From NCBI GenBank assembly GCA_002162795.1, contig MAAY01000077.1, positions 13,956 through 64,559 on the forward strand: a stretch of DNA of 50,604 nt, written 5' to 3'. This stretch comes from Rhodobacterales bacterium 56_14_T64 (GTDB taxonomy: Bacteria; Pseudomonadota; Alphaproteobacteria; Rhodobacterales; Rhodobacteraceae). Both the position numbers and the translations under genes were made by a program. Positions 38,258 through 50,393 of the stretch are shown in pieces. The notes beneath the pieces are model-generated. The model was not told the origin of the DNA. It ran no database searches and saw only the letters and a list, made by a program, of their open reading frames with translations. Each line of letters opens with the position of its first letter. Within the stretch, counting starts at the first letter, position 1.

Positions 38258-39292
38258 ATGACCACTCGGAGAAAGCTACTCGGCGCCTTTGGTGTCGCAG
38301 CCATCGCAGCGCTTAGCGCGACATCAGCAATGGCTCAGGAAGTCACTTTGAAACTGCACCAGTTTCTGCCGGCTCAGGCCAATGTACCAAAACTGATCCT
38401 GGATGTCTGGGCAGATAAGATTGAAGAGGCCTCGGAAGGCCGTATCAAGATCGACCGCTACCCATCCATGCAGCTGGGCGGCAAGCCACCAGAGCTGATG
38501 GACCAGGCCATCGACGGCGTTGCCGACATTGTCTGGACAGTGGTTGGCTATACGCCCGGTCGCTATCCGTCGACCGAAGTGTTCGAGCTGCCTTTCATGA
38601 TGACCGACGCTCGTGCGGTGTCGCGTGCTTATTGGGAAATGTTCGAAACCCACATGAAAGACACCGAGTTCAAGGATCTCAAGATCCTCGGAACTTGGGT
38701 CCACGGCCCCGGCATGATCCACACCTCGGATCCGGTTTCCACACCTGATGACCTGCGCGGCATGAAAATCCGTGGCGGTTCGCGCTCGGTCAACTCGCTG
38801 CTGACTGAACTGGGTGCAACTCCGGTTGGCATGCCAGTTCCGGCTGTGCCCGAAGGCCTGTCCAAAGGTGTGATCGATGGGACTACAATTCCGTGGGAAG
38901 TTACCGCAGCCCTGAAAGTTCCAGAGCTGGTTACCAACCACACCGAGTTCACCGGCAAAGCGCTGTACACGCTGACCTTTGTTCTCGCGATGAACAAGCC
39001 CAAGTTTGACAGCCTGCCTGCCGATCTGCAGCAGATCATTGACGACAATTCCGGTCTGGAATTCTCGGTGTTTGCTGGTGGAACTCAGGCTGATGCCGAT
39101 GGTCCTTCGCGCGAAATGGCGCTGGATATGGGTAACAACGTGATCACCCTGGACGCCGCCCAAACCGCTGTATGGCGTGAACGTGCGCAGCCGATCTATG
39201 ACAAATGGCTGGCTGACATGACCGAAAAAGGCATCGACGGTCAGGCGCTGATTGACGAAGCAACCATGCTGATCGAGAAATACTCGAAGTAA
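38258..39292 (+). CDS. dctP: TRAP transporter substrate-binding protein DctP
   Basis: Periplasmic receptor of a tripartite ATP-independent transporter. The 344-residue product begins with a twin-arginine-like signal (TTRRKLLGAFGVAAIAALSATSAMAQ), followed by VTLKLHQFLPAQANVPKLILDVWADKIEEASEGRIKIDRYPSMQLGG, the DctP opening with the GRI box, and LKILGTWVHGPGMIHTSDPVSTPDDLRGMKIRGGSRSVNSLLTELGATPVGMPVPAVPEGLSKGVIDG (arginine clamp for a carboxylate in IRGGSR). GGGAGGA is at 38245-38251 before the ATG. First gene of dctPQM. The carboxylate-binding build and the neighbouring benzoate genes make an aromatic acid a fair candidate. Confidence 0.92.
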   Translation: MTTRRKLLGAFGVAAIAALSATSAMAQEVTLKLHQFLPAQANVPKLILDVWADKIEEASEGRIKIDRYPSMQLGGKPPELMDQAIDGVADIVWTVVGYTPGRYPSTEVFELPFMMTDARAVSRAYWEMFETHMKDTEFKDLKILGTWVHGPGMIHTSDPVSTPDDLRGMKIRGGSRSVNSLLTELGATPVGMPVPAVPEGLSKGVIDGTTIPWEVTAALKVPELVTNHTEFTGKALYTLTFVLAMNKPKFDSLPADLQQIIDDNSGLEFSVFAGGTQADADGPSREMALDMGNNVITLDAAQTAVWRERAQPIYDKWLADMTEKGIDGQALIDEATMLIEKYSK

Positions 39293-39310
39293 GTCTGGTA
39301 CTGACCAAGG

Positions 39311-39338
39311 GGCCGCGGCGATCACTTCGCTGCGGCCT
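39311..39338 (+). promoter_or_regulatory. Stem-loop between dctP and dctQ
   Basis: An 11-bp stem GGCCGCGGCGA / TCGCTGCGGCC (39311-39321 with 39327-39337, one G-T pair) with a 5-base loop lies 18 bases past the dctP stop and is followed by TTACTT. Such hairpins after binding-protein genes in transport operons often raise the level of the receptor relative to the membrane subunits. Confidence 0.65.
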
Positions 39339-39367
39339 TACTTGTGACGCGAAAGGAATGCGTAACT

Positions 39368-39952
39368 ATGCACAAGTTGATGCTAAAACTGTCCCGATTT
39401 ATGGCTGCTGCTGGTGGCTTTGTTCTGACCCTGCTGATCGTGCTGACCTGTATCTCAATCTCCGGGCGCCTGCTGAATGGGTTTTTTCACGGCGATCTGA
39501 TGCAGAGCCTTGCTCCGGGATTTGCCGAGTGGATGATTGCCATCGGCGTCGGGCCGATCAACGGCGATTTTGAACTGGTCGAGGCCGGGGTTGCCTTTGC
39601 CATCTTTGCCTTTCTGCCACTGTGCCAGATCACCTCGGGGCATGCCTCGGTTGATATACTGGTCGATAGTTTCCCACGACGGGTGAATAGTTTCTTGCGC
39701 ATGGTGACCGAGATTGTCTTTGCTGCAGTTCTGGTTCTGATCGCCTGGCGGCTAGAGGCCGGATTGGTCAGTAAATTGAACAACGGCGAAACCTCGTTCC
39801 TGCTGGAATTTCCGATTTGGTGGGCCTATGCCGCCAGCCTGGTCGCCGCCGTGGTTGCTGCCATTGTCGGCGTTTACATGGGTGTCGTACGTACCATCGA
39901 ATTTTTGACCGGCCGTATCCTGGTCTGGGACGGTCTGGAGACTGAACAGTGA
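39368..39952 (+). CDS. dctQ: TRAP transporter small permease DctQ
   Basis: Four-helix small membrane subunit of the TRAP transporter. The 194-residue product has helices about residues 12-34, 45-90, 105-135 and 150-170, and the family motif region FELVEAGVAFAIFAFLPLCQITSGHASVDIL (the E and H spots typical of DctQ). The open frame begins at a GTG 39344, but ATG 39368 (MHKLMLKLSRFMAA) has AAAGGA 10 bases ahead (39352-39357) and is preferred. It overlaps the dctM start by four bases (GTGA). Confidence 0.88.
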   Translation: MHKLMLKLSRFMAAAGGFVLTLLIVLTCISISGRLLNGFFHGDLMQSLAPGFAEWMIAIGVGPINGDFELVEAGVAFAIFAFLPLCQITSGHASVDILVDSFPRRVNSFLRMVTEIVFAAVLVLIAWRLEAGLVSKLNNGETSFLLEFPIWWAYAASLVAAVVAAIVGVYMGVVRTIEFLTGRILVWDGLETEQ

Positions 39953-41454
39953 CTGCACTTGAAATTGGAATCGCCTCTTTCCCGCTCTTGATGGTGTTGA
40001 TTTTCCTGCGGGTGCCGATCGGCTTGTCGATGTTCCTTGTCGGCTTGGGAGGGCTGATGATCGTCACTGACGGCACTCTGGTGGCTTTTGGTCGCCTCAA
40101 AAATGAAACCTATTCGACCTTTTCCTCCTATTCGCTGACCATTGTGCCGATGTTCCTGTTGATGGGGCATTTTGCAACGCTGGGCGGCATGTCCAGCGCC
40201 CTGTTCAAAGCCGCCGAAGGCTTTCTCGGCCACCGTCGAGGCGGAGTGGCCATGGCAGCCATCGGCGCCTGTGCTGGCTTTGGTGCAATCTGCGGCAGTT
40301 CATTGGCCACGGCGGCCACCATGGGACGCGTTGCGTTACCCGAACTGAAACAATACGGCTATGCCGGTGGGTTCTCAGCCGCAACGCTGGCCGCTGGCGG
40401 CACCCTTGGCATCCTGATCCCACCCTCGGTGGTGCTGGTGATCTACGCCATCCTGACCGAACAGAACATTGCCAAGCTGTTCCTCGCGGCCTTTATCCCC
40501 GGCCTTCTGGCTGCACTTGGTTATGTGATTGTCATCTCGATCTATGTACGCCTGTACCCTGATGCCGCCGGCACTCGCCCAGCGGTTCCTTGGGGAGAGC
40601 GTTTTGCCGCATTGTTCCGCGTCTGGCCCGTGTTGATGGTGTTTGGTCTTGTGGTCGGCGGCATCTATCTAGGTTGGTTCACTCCCACCGAAGGTGCAGC
40701 CGTGGGTGCTTTTGGCACCGGGTTGATTGCCTGGCTGAACGGCGGGTTGAACCGGCTAACCCTGACCGACAGCTTCATGGTCACCGCACGCTCAACGGCA
40801 ATGATCTTCTTCATTGTACTAGGGGCCGGCTTCTACAACGGCTTTTTGGCGCTGACCAAGGTGCCTCAGGAATTGGCAGATTTTGTCGTCAGCCAGGGCT
40901 TTAGCCCGTGGATGGTGCTGACGTTGATCTTGGTGTTCTACCTGTTGTTTGGCTGCCTGATGGACAGCCTCAGCATGATCCTGCTGACCATCCCCATCTT
41001 CTTCCCAGTGATCTCGGCGATGGATTTCAACATGGTCTCACTGCCCGCAATGCAAGCATCTGCGGCAATGGAGGTGCTGAACGTTGGGGTGCCCGACGGT
41101 ATGGCGTCAGGCATGTTAGCCTCGATACAAGAGGCCATTTCCGGCGGCATGGAACTGACTCGTGATCAGATGAAAGAGCTGGGCATTCGGGTCACCCAGG
41201 GCATGGCTGATCGGATTGAGGCAGAATATGTTGCCATCTGGTTCGGCATCCTGGTGCTGATCGTGGTCGAAGTTGGCCTGATTACGCCTCCGGTTGGGAT
41301 GAACCTGTTCATTATCAATGCAATGGATCGCAAGACCAAGATGATTGATACCTACAAGGCGGTAATGTTCTTTGTCGCCTCTGACCTTGTTCGGGTGATT
41401 ATCCTGGTGCTGTTCCCGATCATCACCCTGTTGCCGCTGATGTTGATGCGCTGA
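39949..41454 (+). CDS. dctM: TRAP transporter large permease DctM
   Basis: Large sodium-coupled membrane subunit of the TRAP transporter. The 501-residue product has about twelve helices and the DctM pieces: FLRVPIGLSMFLVGLGGLMI, GACAGFGAICGSSLATAATMGRVALPELKQYGY (GxICGSSxATxxT substrate region), LIPPSVVLVIYAILTEQNIAKLFLAAFIPGLL, and LLFGCLMDSLSMILLTIPIFFPVI, EVGLITPPVGMNLFIIN near the end. The GTG start at 39949 overlaps dctQ; a usual DctM is about 430 residues, so this one has an insertion (about residues 365-415, rich in Met) within the second half. Followed by 265 bases before the benzoate cluster. Confidence 0.9.
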   Translation: MTALEIGIASFPLLMVLIFLRVPIGLSMFLVGLGGLMIVTDGTLVAFGRLKNETYSTFSSYSLTIVPMFLLMGHFATLGGMSSALFKAAEGFLGHRRGGVAMAAIGACAGFGAICGSSLATAATMGRVALPELKQYGYAGGFSAATLAAGGTLGILIPPSVVLVIYAILTEQNIAKLFLAAFIPGLLAALGYVIVISIYVRLYPDAAGTRPAVPWGERFAALFRVWPVLMVFGLVVGGIYLGWFTPTEGAAVGAFGTGLIAWLNGGLNRLTLTDSFMVTARSTAMIFFIVLGAGFYNGFLALTKVPQELADFVVSQGFSPWMVLTLILVFYLLFGCLMDSLSMILLTIPIFFPVISAMDFNMVSLPAMQASAAMEVLNVGVPDGMASGMLASIQEAISGGMELTRDQMKELGIRVTQGMADRIEAEYVAIWFGILVLIVVEVGLITPPVGMNLFIINAMDRKTKMIDTYKAVMFFVASDLVRVIILVLFPIITLLPLMLMR

Positions 41455-41719: not shown

Positions 41720-43258
41720 ATGACCGCCAGTGCCAATGCAGCCAGCTATTTTGTCGACCGTCACAGCCAGGAACGCCCCAACAAAATCGCCTTTCGCGAG
41801 GCCGCAGGGAAGAAACGCAACCTCAGTTATGGACAGCTGGCCATAGACAGCGCCCGAATTGCCGGTGCGATATGTCGTGCCGGAATTGTGCGCGAGGCCC
41901 GCGTGGCGATGCTGGTATTGGACCAGATCGAATTTCCACAAATCTTTTGGGGTGCGTTGAAATCCGGTGTGGTTCCCGTGCCACTGAACACGCTGCTGTC
42001 CACCTCGGTTTATGAGGCCATCCTGCGCGACAGCCGCGCCACTGCCCTGTTTATCAGCGCCGAGCTGTGGCCGGTGGTCAAACCCGCCGCTTTGGCGGCA
42101 CCCGACCTGCAGCACATCGTGGTAATCGGCGACGAAGTACCCGAGGGCACCCAAGGTTTTGAAGATTTCATCGCGGGCGCCGATCCCATGCCGCCAGTCG
42201 AGTGTTCAGGGGACGAGACCGCGTTCTGGCTCTACTCGTCGGGCTCAACCGGACTGCCCAAAGGCGTGCGCCATGTGCATAGCGCGCTGCGTGCCACTGC
42301 GGAAACCTACGGTGCGCAGGTGTTGCAGTTGACGGAAACCGATGTGGTTTTCTCGGTCGCCAAATTGTTCTTTGCCTACGGAATGGGCAACGCGATGAAC
42401 ATGCCGATGGCGGTTGGCGCAACAGCGGTTCTGCTTAACGGTCGCCCAACGCCAGAGGTTGTGTTGGATGTTCTGGAGGCAGAACAGCCCACCGTTTTCT
42501 GCGGCGTCCCAACTCTTTATGCCGCGACGCTGGCGCAGCTCGAAATGGTGATGAAACCAGACACGCCTCTGCGCTGCTGTATTTCTGCGGGTGAAGCCCT
42601 GCCCGAGGATGTCGGCCGTCGGTGGCGCGATCTGTGGGGCGTTGATATCCTGGATGGCGTCGGCTCGACTGAGATGTTGCATATCTTCCTCTCTAACGCG
42701 CCAGGCGACGTGGTCTACGGAACCTCGGGTGTCGCTGTGCCTGGCTATCAACTTCGCTTGGTCGACGAGGCCGGCGCAGAGGTGGCGCAGGGCGAAATCG
42801 GTGAATTGCTGGTGCGTGGAGACTCGGCGGCAGATGGCTATTGGAACCAGCGCGGCAAAAGCCGGGCTACTTTTGAGGGCGAGTGGACCCGCACCGGCGA
42901 CAAATACGAACGCGAGGCGCAGGGACGCTATATTTACTGTGGCCGTACCGACGACATGTTCAAGGTCTCGGGCATCTGGCTGTCACCGTTTGAAGTCGAA
43001 CAGACACTGATCTCACACCCTGCGGTGTTGGAAGCGGCAGTGGTCTCGGCGCGTGATGGCGAAGGGCTGGAGAAGCCTAAGGCTTATATTGTGTTGAAAG
43101 AGGGGGTCGCCAGCACTGAACTGGCTGCAGAGCTAAAGGCCTATGTCAAAGACAAGATAGGTAAGTGGAAATACCCGCGCTGGATCGAATTTGCTGAGGA
43201 TCTGCCCAAAACAGCCACAGGCAAAATTCAACGGTTCAAGCTGCGCCAGGACGGCTGA
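41720..43258 (+). CDS. bclA: Benzoate-CoA ligase
   Basis: Activates benzoate to benzoyl-CoA with ATP, the entry step of the box pathway. The 512-residue product is an ANL adenylate-forming enzyme with A3 motif LYSSGSTGLPKGVRHVH, FSVAKLFFAYGMGNAMNMPMAVGATAVLL, GSTEMLHIFLSN (A5-like), TGDKYEREAQGRYIYCGRTDDMFKVSGIWLSPFEVE (A7-A8) and the A10 lysine in KTATGKIQRFKLR. The KVSGIWLSPFEVEQ and AKLFFAYG stretches are like benzoate/4-hydroxybenzoate-CoA ligases. Its stop overlaps the start of the downstream hydrolase by one base (TGATG). A close relative could use 2-aminobenzoate, but the box context favours benzoate. Confidence 0.95.
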   Translation: MTASANAASYFVDRHSQERPNKIAFREAAGKKRNLSYGQLAIDSARIAGAICRAGIVREARVAMLVLDQIEFPQIFWGALKSGVVPVPLNTLLSTSVYEAILRDSRATALFISAELWPVVKPAALAAPDLQHIVVIGDEVPEGTQGFEDFIAGADPMPPVECSGDETAFWLYSSGSTGLPKGVRHVHSALRATAETYGAQVLQLTETDVVFSVAKLFFAYGMGNAMNMPMAVGATAVLLNGRPTPEVVLDVLEAEQPTVFCGVPTLYAATLAQLEMVMKPDTPLRCCISAGEALPEDVGRRWRDLWGVDILDGVGSTEMLHIFLSNAPGDVVYGTSGVAVPGYQLRLVDEAGAEVAQGEIGELLVRGDSAADGYWNQRGKSRATFEGEWTRTGDKYEREAQGRYIYCGRTDDMFKVSGIWLSPFEVEQTLISHPAVLEAAVVSARDGEGLEKPKAYIVLKEGVASTELAAELKAYVKDKIGKWKYPRWIEFAEDLPKTATGKIQRFKLRQDG

Positions 43259-44076
43259 TGGGTTTTTGTTGGCAGGATCAGGGACATGTGGCAGTCAGCG
43301 GAGTCGCATTGGAATATGCTTGCTACGGACCGCCGCCAAATAAGGCCGCAACCATAATCATGCTGCACGAAGGTCTGGGCTGCGTGGCGCTGTGGCGTGA
43401 CGTGCCTCAGAAACTGGCCGAAGCAACGGGCCTGGGGGGCTTTGTCTACTCTCGTCAGGGTTATGGCACATCGGACCCGGTGACCTTGCCTCGATCATTG
43501 GACTTCATGACGCATGAGGCGGTGGATGTCCTGCCCGAAGTGTTGGATGTAATTGGGTTTCGTCAGGGCATTCTGATGGGCCATAGCGACGGGGCAACCG
43601 TTGCCGCAATCAATTGCGGCTCGATATCCGATCACAGGGTGCGCGGCCTTGTTCTACTGGCACCGCATTTCTTTACCGAAGACATCGGTCTGGCTTCGAT
43701 CGCCAAGGCGCGTAACAGATTCGAGACTGGTGACTTGCGCAGCAAACTGGCGAAATACCACGATGACCCTAACGGGGCCTTTCTTGGCTGGAACGATGTC
43801 TGGCTGCACCCTCAATTCCTTGCATGGGACGTGACGGAGGTGATCGATTACATACGGGTGCCGATTTTGGCGATTCAGGGACGACAGGATCAATACGGTA
43901 CGCTGGCGCAGATCGAGGTGATCGCAGAGCGTGCCTATTGCCCGGTGGATTTACTGGTGGTCGAGGATTGCGGCCACAGCCCACATTTGGAGCAAGCGGG
44001 AAATGTTTTGGCGGAGATTACTCAATTCGCCACGCGACTGGCTCGGATAGAGGCAGCCATGGTCGAGACAGGATGA
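43258..44076 (+). CDS. Box-cluster alpha/beta hydrolase
   Basis: Serine hydrolase of the alpha/beta fold; likely handles an ester, lactone or CoA thioester of the pathway. The 272-residue product has an HEGLGCVALWRDVPQKLAE oxyanion loop, the nucleophile elbow GHSDGA (Ser at about residue 110), PILAIQGRQDQYG (acid Asp) and CGHSPH (catalytic His near residue 240). Alpha/beta hydrolases with this HEGLG start are found in box clusters of other proteobacteria, from general knowledge; a role as lactonase for the ring-fission product has been proposed for them. Translationally coupled to the ligase gene by a TGATG overlap. Confidence 0.8.
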   Translation: MGFCWQDQGHVAVSGVALEYACYGPPPNKAATIIMLHEGLGCVALWRDVPQKLAEATGLGGFVYSRQGYGTSDPVTLPRSLDFMTHEAVDVLPEVLDVIGFRQGILMGHSDGATVAAINCGSISDHRVRGLVLLAPHFFTEDIGLASIAKARNRFETGDLRSKLAKYHDDPNGAFLGWNDVWLHPQFLAWDVTEVIDYIRVPILAIQGRQDQYGTLAQIEVIAERAYCPVDLLVVEDCGHSPHLEQAGNVLAEITQFATRLARIEAAMVETG

Positions 44077-44293: not shown

Positions 44294-45955
44294 ATGACCC
44301 AGGTGATTGACTTTCAGACCGACCCCTCGAAATACCGTCATTGGCGGGTCGAGTATGACGGCGAGATCGCCAATCTGTTCATGGATGTAGACGAGACGGG
44401 CGGGTTGTTCCCGGGGTATGAGCTAAAGCTGAACTCCTATGATCTGGGTGTCGACATCGAGCTGGCAGACGTGGTGCAGCGGATGCGGTTTGAGCACCCC
44501 GAGGTCAAAGTGGTGGTGATGCAATCCGGCAAGGACAAGGTGTTCTGTGCCGGCGCCAATATTCGCATGCTGGGCGGTGCCAGCCATGCGCATAAAGTTA
44601 ATTTCTGTAAATTCACCAATGAAACACGCAACACGTTTGAGGCCGCGGAGGCCGATTCTGGCCAGATGTATATGGCCGCGATCAAAGGCGCTTGCGCTGG
44701 CGGTGGCTACGAGTTGGCGCTGGCTTGCAATCATATCATGCTGACCAATGACAGCGCCTCTTCGGTTGCGCTGCCCGAAGTGCCCTTGCTGGCAGTGTTG
44801 CCGGGCACAGGTGGACTGACGCGGGTGACCGATAAGCGCAAAGTGCGGCGCGATCTGGCTGATGTGTTCTGCTCGGTCGAAGAAGGGGTCAAAGGTCAGC
44901 GTGCGGTGGATTGGAAGCTGGTCGACGAGGTGGTCGCCAATTCCAAGTTCGACGCCACGGTGAAAGAACGCGCAGCAGAGTTTGCTGCTGCCGGCTCCAA
45001 ACCTTCGGGATTGACTGGTATCGAAATGACGCCTCTGGACCGCAGTTTTGGCGCGGATGGCTCTGTAACCTATTCCACCGTCGAGGTCTCATTTGATCGT
45101 AAGAACGGCCGCGCCAATGTTACCTTGAACGGGCCGAAAGAGGATGCACCGGCTGACATGGCAGCGCTGCAAGCGCAGGGAGCACAGGCCTATATGCTGC
45201 GGCTGGCGCGGGAATTAGACGACGCTCTGTTGCATCTGCGGCTGAACGAACGCGAGATGGGCCTGGTGGTGTTCCGCACCCAAGGTGACGCCGATACCTT
45301 GCTGGCGCACGAGGAATTGCTGCTATCCAATAGTGATCACTGGCTGGCCAATGAGATTCTGAAATACTGGAAGCGAGTGCTGAAACGGGTCGACATGACC
45401 TCGCGCTCGCTGGTGGCTCTGGTCGAACATGGTTCTTGTTTCGCCGGGGTTCTGGCTGAACTGCTGTGGTCAGTGGACCGCAGCTATATGATGCTGGAGG
45501 AATTTGAGGGCGACAATCGCCCGCTGGCGGCGATCACCGTGAGCGAGGGAAATTTTGGTCGCTACCCAATGGGCAATGACTTAACCCGGCTACAAACTCG
45601 GTTTCTGGGTGATCCGGACGATGTTGATGCATTGAAGGAGAAGATGGGCGAGGTACTGGAAGCTGAGACGGCCGAAGATCTTGGTCTAGTTACCTTTGCC
45701 TTTGATGACATCGATTGGGACGACGAGGTGCGGATCTTCATGGAAGAGCGCGCCAGTTTCTCGCCGGATGCGATGACTGGCATGGAGGCAAACCTGCGCT
45801 TTGCTGGCCCCGAAACGATGGAAACGCGGATCTTTGGCCGCCTGACGGCCTGGCAAAACTGGATCTTTCAACGTCCAAACGCTGTCGGGCCAGAGGGCGC
45901 GTTGCAGCGTTATGGCAGCGGTAAACGCGGCGACTACAATATGGAACGCGTCTGA
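44294..45955 (+). CDS. boxC: 2,3-epoxybenzoyl-CoA dihydrolase BoxC
   Basis: Hydrolyses 2,3-epoxybenzoyl-CoA with two waters, cleaving the ring and releasing formate plus 3,4-dehydroadipyl-CoA semialdehyde. The 553-residue product is of the typical BoxC length and consists of two crotonase-like halves: the N-half with KVVVMQSGKDKVFCAGANIRMLGG and the AIKGACAGGGYELALACNHIMLTN oxyanion region, ALPEVPLLAVLPGTGGLTRVTDKRKVRRDLADVFCSVEEG; the C-half with the LVALVEHGSCFAGVLAELLWSVDRSYM stretch. The AGGAG site (44282-44286) is 7 bases before the ATG. Followed by an 82-base junction with a large inverted repeat and then boxB. Confidence 0.96.
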   Translation: MTQVIDFQTDPSKYRHWRVEYDGEIANLFMDVDETGGLFPGYELKLNSYDLGVDIELADVVQRMRFEHPEVKVVVMQSGKDKVFCAGANIRMLGGASHAHKVNFCKFTNETRNTFEAAEADSGQMYMAAIKGACAGGGYELALACNHIMLTNDSASSVALPEVPLLAVLPGTGGLTRVTDKRKVRRDLADVFCSVEEGVKGQRAVDWKLVDEVVANSKFDATVKERAAEFAAAGSKPSGLTGIEMTPLDRSFGADGSVTYSTVEVSFDRKNGRANVTLNGPKEDAPADMAALQAQGAQAYMLRLARELDDALLHLRLNEREMGLVVFRTQGDADTLLAHEELLLSNSDHWLANEILKYWKRVLKRVDMTSRSLVALVEHGSCFAGVLAELLWSVDRSYMMLEEFEGDNRPLAAITVSEGNFGRYPMGNDLTRLQTRFLGDPDDVDALKEKMGEVLEAETAEDLGLVTFAFDDIDWDDEVRIFMEERASFSPDAMTGMEANLRFAGPETMETRIFGRLTAWQNWIFQRPNAVGPEGALQRYGSGKRGDYNMERV

Positions 45956-46037: not shown

Positions 46038-47489
46038 ATGCTCGATCTGATTAATGTCAGCTATGATACTCAAATCCCAAATAACGTTGGCCTGAGCAGC
46101 GACAAAAAGGTGCTGAAGGCGCTAGAAAAATGGCACCCCGGTTATATTAATTGGTGGAATGATCTGATCCCGCAGCAGTTCCAGCAAAGCATGATTTATC
46201 TGCGCACCGCAGTCTCGGTGGATCCCAAAGGCTGGGCCAAGTTCGACTATGTCAAGATGCCTGAATATCGCTGGGGCGTGCTGCTGGCGCCGCAGGTTGA
46301 GGGTCGGACTATCCCTTGTGGTGAGCATTACGGCGAACTGGCCTGGCAGGAGGTTCCCGGCGAATACCGAAATATGCTGAAGCGGATGATTGTGATCCAG
46401 GGCGATACCGAGCCGGGATCGGTCGAGCAGCAACGCTTTTTGGGTCTGACCGCGCCGTCGCTCTATGACCTGCGCAACCTGTTTCAGGTCAATGTTGAAG
46501 AGGGCCGCCATCTCTGGGCGATGGTCTATCTGCTGCAGAAATACTTTGGCCGTGATGGCCGTGAAGAAGCCAACGACATGTTGGTGCGCTCGTCAGGATC
46601 CGAGGAAGCGCCGCGGATGCTGGGGGCGTTCAACGAAGAAACCCCGGATTGGCTGTCTTTCTTCATGTTCACTTATTTCACCGACCGTGACGGAAAAATG
46701 CAGCTGGAAAGCCTGGCGCAGTCCGGTTTTGATCCACTTAGCCGCACTTGCCGGTTCATGCTGACTGAAGAAGCACACCATATGTTTGTGGGTGAAACCG
46801 GAGTGGGCCGCACCATTCAGGCGACCTGTGAGGCAATGAAAAAGGCCGGGATTACCAACCCCTATGACATCGACAAAATTCGCGATCTGGGTGTCATCGA
46901 CCTGCCCACCATCCAGAAGAAGCTAAACCTGCACTACACCTTGTCGCTGGACCTGTTTGGCCAGGAAGTATCGACCAACGCCGCCAACGCCTTTAACTCG
47001 GGTATCAAGGGCCGGTTCATGGAGCAACGGATCAAGGATGACCACAAGCTGACCAACGACAGCTACATCGTGCGCTCGATCAAAGAGGGCCGGATTGTCG
47101 CCGAAGAGGTTCCGGCACTGACAGCAATCAACATGCGGCTGCGGGATGACTATGTGAAAGACGCCGCCGGCGGGGTGGGGCGCTGGAACAAGTTGATCGC
47201 CAAGCAGGGGGTTGAGTTCGAAATGAACATCCCGCACGAGGGCTTTCATCGCAAAATCGGTGTCTTCGCTGCGGTCAACATCAGCCCTGATGGCGATATC
47301 ATTCCCAAAGAAGAGTGGGAGGCCAAGGTTGAGGACTGGCTGCCAAGCAAGGCGGATGGCGACTTCATCCAATCGCTGATGAAGCCTTGTATGGAGCCGG
47401 GCAAATTTGCCAGCTGGATTGCGCCACCCAAAGTGGGGATTGATAACAAACCGGGTGACTTTGAATACGTGCAATTGCACATGGCCTAA
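46038..47489 (+). CDS. boxB: Benzoyl-CoA 2,3-epoxidase subunit BoxB
   Basis: Diiron oxygenase that adds one oxygen of O2 to benzoyl-CoA to form 2,3-epoxybenzoyl-CoA. The 483-residue product shows two carboxylate/His motifs expected for a diiron site: EEGRH (Glu154, Glu155, His158) and TEEAHHMF (Glu244, Glu245, His247/248), with QFQQSMIYLRTAVSVDPKGWAKFDYVKMPEYRWGVLLAPQ upstream and YVKDAAGGVGRWNKLI downstream, all typical of BoxB. GTAGGAGA leads the ATG by about 6 bases. Electrons come from BoxA; the 58-residue ORF and boxA follow. Confidence 0.96.
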   Translation: MLDLINVSYDTQIPNNVGLSSDKKVLKALEKWHPGYINWWNDLIPQQFQQSMIYLRTAVSVDPKGWAKFDYVKMPEYRWGVLLAPQVEGRTIPCGEHYGELAWQEVPGEYRNMLKRMIVIQGDTEPGSVEQQRFLGLTAPSLYDLRNLFQVNVEEGRHLWAMVYLLQKYFGRDGREEANDMLVRSSGSEEAPRMLGAFNEETPDWLSFFMFTYFTDRDGKMQLESLAQSGFDPLSRTCRFMLTEEAHHMFVGETGVGRTIQATCEAMKKAGITNPYDIDKIRDLGVIDLPTIQKKLNLHYTLSLDLFGQEVSTNAANAFNSGIKGRFMEQRIKDDHKLTNDSYIVRSIKEGRIVAEEVPALTAINMRLRDDYVKDAAGGVGRWNKLIAKQGVEFEMNIPHEGFHRKIGVFAAVNISPDGDIIPKEEWEAKVEDWLPSKADGDFIQSLMKPCMEPGKFASWIAPPKVGIDNKPGDFEYVQLHMA

Positions 47490-47526: not shown

Positions 47527-47551
47527 TTCGTTTCCTACCGGAGAACTTGTC

Positions 47552-47728
47552 ATGAAAATCAGCCACGACCGGGCGAGCACGCCCCACATGGACCATCTGT
47601 CGCTTCAGATTGGCAGCTTGCAGGGCCCCTGCATTGGCTGCAGTGGTTGCACAGGGTTATGCAACGCCTTGATTGATGCGCTGACGCTGCCTGACATCAT
47701 TCTGAACAAGACCGCCAAATCCCAATGA
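47552..47728 (+). CDS. 58-residue ORF with a C-x2-C-x2-C-x3-C motif, coupled to boxA
   Basis: A short gene not recognised as any named family. It starts with ATG 47552 (GGAGA 8 bases ahead) and ends with TGA at 47726-47728, so the ATG of boxA (47725) overlaps it by four bases. The 58 residues begin MKISHDRAST and contain GPCIGCSGCTGLC (Cys27, 30, 33, 37), the cysteine spacing of [4Fe-4S] ferredoxins, but the fourth Cys is followed by Asn rather than Pro. The start site, overlap and cysteine pattern suggest a real peptide, perhaps an electron-transfer, maturation or metal-binding partner of BoxA/BoxB. No function should be assigned from this alone. Confidence 0.7.
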   Translation: MKISHDRASTPHMDHLSLQIGSLQGPCIGCSGCTGLCNALIDALTLPDIILNKTAKSQ

Positions 47729-48918
47729 CTCATGCCCTGAAACAACATCTGATTGACCCGGAAATCTGTATCCGTTGCTATACCTGCGAGACGGCCTGCA
47801 CGGCCGAGGCGATTGAGCATGATGGTGTTAATGTCGTGGTGAATGCTTCCAAGTGCAATTTCTGTATGGACTGTATCCCGGTCTGTCCCACGGGCTCGAT
47901 CGACGAATGGCGGGTGGTGACAAATCCCTACTCGGTTGACGAACAGTTTGAATGGGAAGAACTGCCAGAACAAGCCGAAATTGTCGGCGGCGACGAGCCG
48001 GAAAGTGGCCTGGAGGCCTTGGACGACGCCATGGTGGCGCTACTGGCCGAGGCGCATGCCGGGGCGGGTGGTAAAGCCAAACCTCCGGCAAGTGCAGCCA
48101 AACCCACGATCAATATGTATACCCTGGGCAACCCTGCCACGGCGCGGGTGCAAGGCAATTACCGACTGACCGAACAGAGCAGCGACGCCGATGTCCGTCA
48201 CATTATCCTCGATCTTGCCGGGCTGCCATTTCCGGTGTTAGAAGGTCAGAGCATCGGGATCATTCCGCCGGGCACTGATGCCGCCGGCAAGCCACATCTG
48301 CCGCGACTGTATTCGGTATCCAGCCCGCGTGACGGCGAACGTCCCGGCTATCTGAACATTTCGCTGACCATCAAGCGCGAGCCACAGGGGATCTGCTCGA
48401 ATTACGTTTGCGATCTGACATCTGGCGATGAAGTGCAACTGACAGGGCCGTTTGGGTCGACCTTCCTGATGCCCAGCGATCCGCAGGCGGATCTGATGAT
48501 GATCTGCACCGGTACAGGATCAGCGCCTTTTCGTGGCTTTACCATGCGGCGTCAGCGGGTCTCGCCACTGGACAAGGACCGCATGACACTGGTGTTTGGA
48601 GCGCGTCGACCTGATGAGCTTCCCTATTTTGGCCCGTTGAAAAAGATCCCCGACAGTTTTATGGCCAAGCATTTTGCCTTTTCCCGTCAAGAAGATGCGC
48701 CAAAGCGATATGTTCAGGACCGGCTGCGCGAAGAGTCTGCGCGGGTGGCAGAGCTGCTGCAGAACCCAAATGGGCATATCTACATCTGCGGGTTAAAGGC
48801 GATGGAGCAGGGGGTCGAAGAGGCTCTGAAGGACATCGCCCGTGGTATCGATTTGAACTGGTCCGATCTCAGGGATAGGATGCGCGAAGACGGCAGATAC
48901 CACGTGGAAACCTACTGA
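47725..48918 (+). CDS. boxA: Benzoyl-CoA 2,3-epoxidase reductase subunit BoxA
   Basis: NADPH-dependent reductase that feeds electrons to BoxB. The 397-residue product has two ferredoxin-like cluster motifs (Cys15, 18, 21, 25 in CIRCYTCETACTAEAIEHDG, and Cys44, 47, 50, 54 in CNFCMDCIPVCPTGSID), a linker (about residues 85-135), and a ferredoxin-NADP reductase module: RLYSVSSPRD (flavin-binding RxYS), GICSNYVCDLTSGDEVQLTGPFG, MMICTGTGSAPFRGF and HIYICGLKAMEQGV. In the first cluster the fourth Cys is followed by Thr where Pro is usual. Starts inside the TGA of the small ORF (ATGA); the thioesterase gene begins at the base after its stop. Confidence 0.96.
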   Translation: MTHALKQHLIDPEICIRCYTCETACTAEAIEHDGVNVVVNASKCNFCMDCIPVCPTGSIDEWRVVTNPYSVDEQFEWEELPEQAEIVGGDEPESGLEALDDAMVALLAEAHAGAGGKAKPPASAAKPTINMYTLGNPATARVQGNYRLTEQSSDADVRHIILDLAGLPFPVLEGQSIGIIPPGTDAAGKPHLPRLYSVSSPRDGERPGYLNISLTIKREPQGICSNYVCDLTSGDEVQLTGPFGSTFLMPSDPQADLMMICTGTGSAPFRGFTMRRQRVSPLDKDRMTLVFGARRPDELPYFGPLKKIPDSFMAKHFAFSRQEDAPKRYVQDRLREESARVAELLQNPNGHIYICGLKAMEQGVEEALKDIARGIDLNWSDLRDRMREDGRYHVETY

Positions 48919-49365
48919 ATGACGATACAAGAACCGGCGGCTGTGCCTGCAAATTTCACTCATCAAATTCGTGTCGGTTGGGGCGATTGCGACCCGGCAA
49001 GGATTGCTTACACAGGTCGGCTGCCATGGTTCGCACTAGAGGCAATAGATGCTTGGTGGGAACATAATCTGGGTGGTGACGGCTGGTTCCAGATGGAGCT
49101 GGATCGCGGAACCGGTACGCCTTTTGTTCACATGAGTATTGATTTCCGCTCCCCGGTAACACCGCGCCACCGATTGATCTGTGAAGTTTGGCCGTGCAAA
49201 CTGGGTTCCAGTTCCATCGCCTTTCGTGTCAATGCGCGTCAGGATGGGCAGTTGTGTTTCGAGGGGAAGTTCGTCTGCGTTTTCATTGCGCCTGAAACAT
49301 TCACGTCCAAACCTGCACCGCAGGATATCCGTGACATCGTTACGCCGCTGATCCGACCAGAATAG
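48919..49365 (+). CDS. Acyl-CoA thioesterase (4-hydroxybenzoyl-CoA thioesterase type)
   Basis: Hotdog-fold thioesterase, likely a housekeeping step that frees CoA from benzoyl-CoA or a dead-end aromatic CoA ester. The 148-residue product shows HQIRVGWGDCDPARIAYTGRLPWFALEAIDAWWE (GDCDPAxIxYxxxxxxW, where the Asp is catalytic in 4-hydroxybenzoyl-CoA thioesterases), PFVHMSIDFRSPVTPRHRL and KLGSSSIAFRVNA. It begins at the base right after the boxA stop, with no separate ribosome site, so translation is coupled. Thioesterases occur in other box clusters, from general knowledge. Confidence 0.9.
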   Translation: MTIQEPAAVPANFTHQIRVGWGDCDPARIAYTGRLPWFALEAIDAWWEHNLGGDGWFQMELDRGTGTPFVHMSIDFRSPVTPRHRLICEVWPCKLGSSSIAFRVNARQDGQLCFEGKFVCVFIAPETFTSKPAPQDIRDIVTPLIRPE

Positions 49366-49475: not shown

Positions 49476-50393
49476 ATGAGTGAGATCACCAACTTTCGCG
49501 GCGAAACCAGCACGGTTCCGGACGGCAATCATATCGACACTTCGGTGGCGAAACTGATTGCGCGCGTGGGCGAGCGGGTCAGGCGTGCGCGTGAACGCAA
49601 GGGCATCTCTCGGCGTATCTTGTCGGAACGTTCGGGGGTGTCGACAAGATACTTGGCCCAGCTTGAAAGCGGCGAAGGCAATATCTCGATAGGATTGTTG
49701 CAAAGGGTGGCCATCGCGCTGGATCATCGCATCGAATGGTTGACCGGCGAAGAGGACCCCTGGACGTCCGACGCGTTACGCGTAGGTGATTTGTATCGTA
49801 GCTCAAGTGCAGAAACTCAGCAGAAAGTGCGGAACCTGCTGGCGCCCGAGCCAGAGGCAAGTCTGCGCGCTGGGCGTATTTGTCTGATCGGTTTGCGCGG
49901 GGCTGGAAAATCCACTTTAGGCGCATTGGCTGGGCAAAAACTGGGCCTGCCTTTTGTTGAATTGAACTCGGAGATCGAGGCCCAAAGTGGTATGCCAGTG
50001 GACGAGGTCATGGCCCTGTATGGGCAAGAGGGTTACCGCAAACTGGAGGCCCAGGCGATCTCGCGCATGACGGCCACTCATGACAGCCTGATCCTGGCCG
50101 CTGCTGGTGGGGTGGTAGCAGAGCCGGAAACCTACACCAATTTGCGAGCCAATTTTCACACCATCTGGATCAAGGCCAGCCCGGATGAGCATATGTCACG
50201 GGTCCGTGCACAGGGGGATGACAGGCCGATGGCCGGCAATCCCGAAGCGATGGAACAATTGCGATCCATCCTAACCAGCCGCGAAGCGCTGTATGGTAAG
50301 GCACTGGCGCAACTGGACACATCGGGGCAGGGGGTTGAGGAGACACTTGCCGACCTTGTTACCCTGATTCAGGATCACGGGTTTTTGGATTAA
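49476..50393 (+). CDS. boxR: BoxR: benzoate-pathway regulator (XRE domain plus shikimate-kinase-like domain)
   Basis: Transcription factor of the BzdR/BoxR subfamily that represses box genes until benzoyl-CoA binds. The 305-residue product has an N-terminal helix-turn-helix of the XRE type (about residues 25-85: LIARVGERVRRARERKGISRRILSERSGVSTRYLAQLESGEGNISIGLLQRVAIAL) and a C-terminal shikimate-kinase-like domain from residue about 130 with Walker A GLRGAGKST (residues 139-147), LGLPFVELNSEIEAQSGMPVDEVMALYGQEGYRKLEAQAI and ILAAAGGVVAEPETY. This fusion is the hallmark of the family. The ATG 49476 lacks an obvious ribosome site. It follows the thioesterase by 110 bases, which contain TGCA sites. 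Confidence 0.95.
   Translation: MSEITNFRGETSTVPDGNHIDTSVAKLIARVGERVRRARERKGISRRILSERSGVSTRYLAQLESGEGNISIGLLQRVAIALDHRIEWLTGEEDPWTSDALRVGDLYRSSSAETQQKVRNLLAPEPEASLRAGRICLIGLRGAGKSTLGALAGQKLGLPFVELNSEIEAQSGMPVDEVMALYGQEGYRKLEAQAISRMTATHDSLILAAAGGVVAEPETYTNLRANFHTIWIKASPDEHMSRVRAQGDDRPMAGNPEAMEQLRSILTSREALYGKALAQLDTSGQGVEETLADLVTLIQDHGFLD

Follow-up and report, generated by a model that had tools for sequence, protein, structure and literature searches.

A 58-codon open reading frame (ORF) lying between boxB and boxA in the box operon of the window (the whole stretch of DNA analysed, 50.6 kb) is a real gene, as is evident from its homologues, the purifying selection acting on it and its conserved cysteines. 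Judged by its sequence, the encoded protein would resemble half of a ferredoxin and serve the aerobic benzoyl-CoA (box) pathway in an accessory role, transferring electrons by way of [4Fe-4S]; we put the probability of this reading at roughly 0.45.

The small gene and its operon

The features of the window are listed below, with BoxA, BoxB and BoxC all scoring above the NCBIfam equivalog cut-offs.

38258..41454, + strand: TRAP transporter dctP-dctQ-dctM, upstream of the box genes (ORFs named by eye)
41720..43258, + strand: benzoate-CoA ligase (TIGR02262, 2.3e-218)
43258..44076, + strand: alpha/beta hydrolase of the box operon (PF00561)
44294..45955, + strand: boxC (TIGR03222, 4.7e-288)
46038..47489, + strand: boxB, diiron benzoyl-CoA 2,3-epoxidase (TIGR03225, 5e-269; PDB 3per, a solved BoxB, 1.4e-204)
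47540..47544, + strand: GGAGA, Shine-Dalgarno-like site, 7 nt upstream of the ATG of the small ORF
47552..47728, + strand: gene for the 58-aa half-ferredoxin-like Cys protein (ORF, homologues, selection)
47630..47662, + strand: codons of the C-x2-C-x2-C-x3-C motif (Cys 27, 30, 33 and 37)
47725..47728, + strand: ATGA, start of boxA overlapping the stop of the small gene (from the sequence)
47725..48918, + strand: boxA, reductase with two [4Fe-4S] motifs (TIGR03224, 3.2e-160; motifs)
48919..49365, + strand: thioesterase (4HBT_2) of the box operon (domain match)
49476..50393, + strand: boxR-type regulator with an HTH and a shikimate-kinase domain (NF006015, 6.5e-112; PF01381, PF01202)

The assignment of the TRAP transporter is backed by the DctM of a relative (PF06808), and the window proteins match dctPQM at the same place in relatives. 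The first-pass annotation had described a 58-codon ORF preceded by its own GGAGA site, overlapping boxA through an ATGA and bearing cysteines at positions 27, 30, 33 and 37, and all of this was confirmed on the sequence; its placement between boxB and boxA likewise holds, as the neighbours match the BoxB and BoxA models. The stop codon of the small ORF (TGA, 47726-47728) and the start codon of boxA (ATG, 47725-47727) share the ATGA, and the small protein is probably made in step with BoxA through translational coupling. A loose Shine-Dalgarno-like string precedes the gene in 63 of 66 relatives, as located with a start-picking script that favoured such strings. The full cysteine motif is present at three places in the six frames of the window, two of them in BoxA and the third in the small ORF; 40 dinucleotide shuffles of the window gave a mean of 0.125 occurrences and a maximum of 2. 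The GC content of the small ORF by codon position is 0.47/0.47/0.73.

Conservation and spread in the family

Homologues keeping the four cysteines and the ATGA overlap, together with an excess of synonymous changes, had been named in advance as marks of a genuine gene, and both were found. All eight genomes of the window's genus carry the small ORF with the same overlap to boxA, and dN/dS lies between 0.05 and 0.29 in 15 of the 28 genus pairs (dS being saturated in the remaining 13), indicating purifying selection. Peptide identity to the window falls as low as 59% within the genus while BoxB stays at 95-97%, so the peptide evolves faster than its neighbour with its core kept.

A search with the single sequence matched 62 of 394 genomes of the same family at E<=1e-3, the window's own included; one of these (G013) was removed as spurious, having three stops within the match. 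Alignment A1 was then built from 70 fetched places plus L001, a 95%-identical near-copy in a same-family record that came from the contig search. It holds 66 peptides, five places and L002 having been left out: L002, L063, L068 and L069 were unrelated or gave no match, and L064 and L065 had a broken frame. The script that chose the peptides set C-x2-C-x2-C as its minimum, a filter that every kept row passed, and one further ORF (L109) and three flavodoxin-type ORFs, described below, were found through the motif pattern itself. In A1, which is not an unbiased sample since its weak places (E about 0.002-0.045) were picked by hand, C27, C30, C33, G35, C37 and P47 are invariant in 66/66 members, and the whole motif is kept. 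The consensus reads M-x-I-x-R...P-R...G-P-C-x-G-C-x2-C-x-G-L-C-x-A-L-I-E-A-L-x-L-P-D-x-V-L. Members are 47-70 aa long, with a median of 57.

Each of the 66 carries exactly one CX2CX2CX3C motif, while the three flavodoxin-type ORFs have C-x3-C as the first spacing. Since 61 members have exactly four cysteines and the other five have five, the fourth cysteine is kept without a second motif to go with it.

Such conservation and selection bear directly on the notion that the ORF arose by chance or is a decaying duplicate of the BoxA N-terminus, which we consider extremely improbable. The diferredoxin domain at the N-terminus of the nearby BoxA does begin with a motif of the same spacing (CIRCYTCETAC). 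That domain, however, carries two motifs and is followed by a reductase part; a profile comparison with BoxA aligned just 14 columns at a probability of 1.9%, which is not significant, and the duplicate was rejected on this ground. A chance ORF is refuted by the homologues.

Searches beyond the family returned little. No peptide match was found in the plasmid records searched, and the contig search beyond the family gave only the near-copy L001 and an unrelated cyanobacterial stretch (L002). With the A1 profile, 22 of 385 genomes of the class matched at E<=0.01 (the window's own included) and nine of 359 genomes of the phylum at E<=0.001, five of the nine being of the same family. Inspected singly, the out-of-family matches were ordinary ferredoxin-type proteins, motif-less stretches and a small number of short frames that do not resemble the family; the first-look stage scores at most 16-18 candidates per genome, and absence outside the family is thus not proved. 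BoxB was detected in 81 of the 385 class genomes, two of them same-family, leaving 79 outside the family. Twenty of these 79 loci were fetched, and a Cys ORF, sought in the C-x2-C form of the motif, was found in none of them (boxA lay nearby in 11).

A half-ferredoxin-like motif

Comparison of the A1 profile with the PDB gave PsaC as the best match, with a total E of 9e-5 to which its two half-motifs both contribute (about 0.1-0.4 for either one by itself), and PsaC and ferredoxins make up nearly all of the 60 matches listed out of 88. No Pfam or NCBIfam model names the small protein, and the Fer4 gathering cut-off is not reached: the window peptide scores 15 bits against Fer4_18, and two relatives 14.9 and 17.8, where 27 is required. 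When the 66 members were scanned one by one against Pfam, all weak matches were to 4Fe-4S families, with at most five of the 66 members per family and a best E of 5.4e-4. Weak NCBIfam matches were mixed, including radical-SAM enzymes besides ferredoxins. AlphaFold2 run on the single sequence yielded no usable model (mean pLDDT 46.7).

In a ferredoxin motif the first three cysteines hold one cluster and the fourth cysteine holds the other, and a proline usually follows the fourth cysteine. The peptide shares with 2[4Fe-4S] ferredoxins and PsaC (Pfam Fer4 clan) the local motif, its profile matching each half of PsaC, whereas those proteins carry two motifs per chain against the single one here; the proline directly after the fourth cysteine is present in only 2 of the 66 members and missing in 64. 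Because there is one motif per chain with an invariant fourth cysteine, the sequence suggests either a homodimer or an unusual single site formed by all four cysteines. In the homodimer, each cluster would be bound by Cys 27, 30 and 33 from one chain together with Cys 37 from its partner, the arrangement of a normal two-cluster ferredoxin; in the alternative form, a monomer would carry one cluster on its four cysteines.

These matches also weigh on the idea that the cysteines bind Zn, with the peptide serving BoxB as a small structural clamp or as an adaptor between proteins. The four cysteines are invariant with no other invariant ligands beside them, as a Zn site would have it; yet the consensus scores against PsaC and ferredoxins, and the weak Pfam matches are all to 4Fe-4S families, which leaves this reading improbable.

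The first-pass annotation had offered the peptide as an extra electron carrier or as an Fe-S maturation aid, and here the motif, being of the ferredoxin [4Fe-4S] type, fits both alike. As an aid to maturation or repair, the peptide would hold iron or a labile cluster on its four cysteines and either load the diiron site of BoxB or mend the clusters of BoxA. Small and accessory, repeatedly lost, possessed of four invariant cysteines and encoded between two iron enzymes, beside boxB with either type of reductase, it has features that such a factor would show. Against this, a BoxB-specific factor would have no client in the seven boxB-less genomes that have a copy, and neither Pfam nor NCBIfam relates the peptide to a named family of Fe-S assembly factors, so we hold the maturation aid to be unlikely. 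As an electron carrier, the reading that we prefer, the peptide would relay or buffer single electrons from the reductase (BoxA, or flavodoxin where BoxA is missing) to the diiron site of BoxB. Cluster binding, dimerisation, partner and relay to BoxB are here all inferred.

There would be room for such a helper, given that BoxA has been reported not to co-purify with BoxB, their interaction being only transient according to PMC4498308. Half-ferredoxins have been engineered, and a natural one, in Thermoanaerobacter, mixes monomer and dimer (in the relevant passages of PMC12648291). By the conclusion of that paper natural semidoxins are so far known only from thermophilic anaerobes, and an excerpt of PMC13348028 similarly limits natural half-ferredoxins to anaerobic bacteria; extracts of both call them rare and their functions untested. 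The semidoxins and protodoxin-1, as portrayed in sections of PMC12648291, are like the present peptide in having one CX2CX2CX3C per chain, in their very small size and in needing two chains for a whole ferredoxin. They are about 30 aa long there, against 47-70 aa here. Unlike the semidoxins, the Rhodobacteraceae peptide has an additional conserved segment at its N-terminus and continues further beyond the cysteines, and its hosts are Rhodobacteraceae with an O2-using pathway rather than thermophilic anaerobes. The semidoxin form also involves a beta-alpha-beta fold and a homodimer with two [4Fe-4S] clusters, which the present peptide might or might not share, its single-sequence model being of no help here. 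The search outlined in PMC12648291 began with InterPro ferredoxin signatures, by which the Rhodobacteraceae family would probably be missed.

A small lineage-specific accessory of a diiron oxygenase has a parallel in BciE. We take BciE to be encoded beside acsF, and the conserved small ORF upstream of acsF to be BciE; a conserved small protein was seen beside acsF at 14 of 15 loci (L163-L177). This ORF, about 98-130 aa by the start chosen and lacking a Cys motif, was rejected as a homologue of the peptide because no ORF of 40-140 aa with a Cys motif lies on the acsF strand in the 15 acsF loci. The likeness is in one respect only, both being small accessories of a diiron oxygenase (the cyclase AcsF for BciE) in Alphaproteobacteria, as PMC7319587 describes BciE. 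In the literature searched, no title or abstract opening dealt with a small cysteine protein encoded in the box operon, nor with a flavodoxin-type boxB cluster, most subscription papers lying outside the full-text search.

Association with boxB and its exceptions

BoxB was found at E<=1e-60 in 82 of the 394 family genomes, and 80 of these loci could be assessed (the exceptions being G344, whose locus was not retrieved, and G102, whose sequence stops after boxB). A Cys ORF stands behind boxB in 61 of the 80, followed by boxA in 54, by a flavodoxin in three and by neither in four; of the last, two have BoxA elsewhere and two yielded none, one of these being a 75% complete genome. In the 54 boxB-Cys ORF-boxA loci the ORF overlaps boxA by 4 nt in 37 and by 1 nt in three, and a spacing of 0-333 nt separates them in 14. 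An intact Cys ORF is missing from the other 19 loci. Two of these are of the flavodoxin type and 17 of the boxA type, among them G009, whose copy has a disrupted frame.

On the 92-row BoxB tree, where 30 of 89 inner branches are unresolved, about 13 changes are needed to account for the boxA loci that lack the ORF, and starred branches force at least 4 of these; for the loci that carry it (a label that includes the four reductase-less loci) the figure is about 14, with at least 3 forced. One clade unites the three flavodoxin loci that have a Cys ORF, and some ORF-less BoxB rows from outside the family nest among family rows. The simplest reading of these patterns would be one origin in or near the Rhodobacteraceae followed by repeated loss. 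Loss of the small ORF is tolerated and the gene is dispensable. The first-pass annotation had also considered a subunit of a BoxAB complex. As an obligate subunit this is not supported, with the intact ORF absent from 19/80 family loci and from 20/20 fetched loci outside the family, and with seven boxB-less genomes keeping an intact copy. The same absences, the boxB-less copies and the weak Fer4 matches also count against the accessory carrier that we favour.

By eye, among 17 query genes in 40 loci of at most 19 kb, no partner gene clearly tracks the peptide. A DUF309 gene was seen at 15 of 20 peptide loci, at 9 of 12 loci fetched as peptide-less (one of which, G017, has a diverged Cys ORF) and at 0 of 5 flavodoxin-type loci. 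Between the hydrolase gene and boxC (L178-L209) it occupies 24 of 32 boxA-type loci and 0 of 5 of the flavodoxin type; the window has only 217 nt there.

The reductase beside boxB is not always BoxA. BoxA was searched for in 17 genomes and was absent at E<=1e-20 from five in which a flavodoxin of 152-153 aa follows boxB (L113, L123, L128, L130 and L131, and L210-L214), being found in two others. The flavodoxin identity rests on PF00258 (1.4e-24) for one and on similarity for the rest, and these loci suggest that the benzoyl-CoA epoxidase there draws its electrons from another donor. Three of the five boxA-less genomes have a diverged Cys ORF (C-x3-C-x2-C-x3-C) between boxB and the flavodoxin, with no match to the window peptide or to Pfam. 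From their place and like N-terminus these ORFs may be kin to the family; if they are, a Cys ORF behind boxB where BoxA is absent would tie the small protein to boxB or to electron delivery, rather than to BoxA. BoxA itself keeps both of its Fe-S motifs in 55/55 loci with a peptide match, which rules out the peptide as a replacement for a lost BoxA cluster. In three BoxA proteins (L116, L118 and L125), all at loci without the ORF, cysteines of the second [4Fe-4S] motif have been lost.

The boxB-less copies have neighbourhoods of their own. Seven family genomes (G193, G389, G106, G239, G332, G217 and G266) gave no boxB match at E<=1e-60 yet hold an intact copy of the peptide gene, and an eighth (G143) has a frameshifted one. 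The peptide gene follows FAH-dctPQM in G106, dctPQM in G193 and FAH in G389, and is followed in turn by alkZ and lacI in reverse orientation; the copy of G239 adjoins alkZ and lacI, and that of G266 stands behind a DUF309 gene, itself preceded by TRAP-like genes. Since full box operons at five other loci adjoin the same alkZ-lacI pair, the copies of G106, G193, G389 and G239 seem to mark box clusters from which the box genes have been removed. L215, L216 and L217 have this look, the ligase, boxC, boxB, boxA and boxR apparently gone and the transporter and/or FAH remaining with the small gene beside alkZ and lacI. Within the five-genome genus of G106, boxB-peptide-boxA occurs in one genome (G784) and dctM-peptide in two (G106 and G783), and the other two gave no match to the peptide. 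For G780 and G783 the flanks alone were examined. One box-bearing genome (G383) has a second copy (L079:4944-5108), on a different contig from its box operon, flanked by a gene for an AMP-binding ligase and one resembling boxR.

It is here that a role independent of BoxA and BoxB has to be weighed, in which the protein would be a small Fe-S or Zn redox or metal sensor or adaptor in the uptake and catabolism of aromatic acids, its place in the box operon being incidental. The intact copies near FAH, dctPQM, DUF309 and TRAP-like genes are in keeping with such a role, as are the second copy of G383 and the two dctM-peptide genomes of the G106 genus, the box-less pair G106/G783 having a dN of 0.25 and a dS of 2.05. 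However, at 61/80 loci a Cys ORF occupies the position that follows boxB, and some of the stripped-looking alkZ-lacI copies may be recent leftovers. The copy of G106 is closest to the one in G784 (dS 0.45), a genome that has the box genes, and constraint is weaker in the box-less pair G193/G780 (dN 0.27, dS 0.46). On this balance we regard the sensor or adaptor as rather unlikely, and retain the accessory electron carrier as the preferred reading.

As such a carrier, the protein would add a component to a benzoyl-CoA epoxidase system so far described as BoxA plus BoxB, and would be a widespread aerobic candidate half-ferredoxin, longer than those of anaerobes; the hosts would, to judge from their O2-using pathway, respire oxygen. 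A larger claim, tentative and on balance doubtful, is that this is a large family of natural half-ferredoxins, acting as homodimers in aerobic bacteria, that would represent the one-motif stage before duplication (or one that re-evolved) and relay electrons to a diiron oxygenase. If true, it would contradict the published confinement of natural semidoxins to anaerobes. The middle stage that is missing from the Eck-Dayhoff duplication model is the half-ferredoxin, and a family spread across dozens of genera, in a fixed slot behind a well-studied oxygenase gene, would offer a natural and genetically tractable test case.
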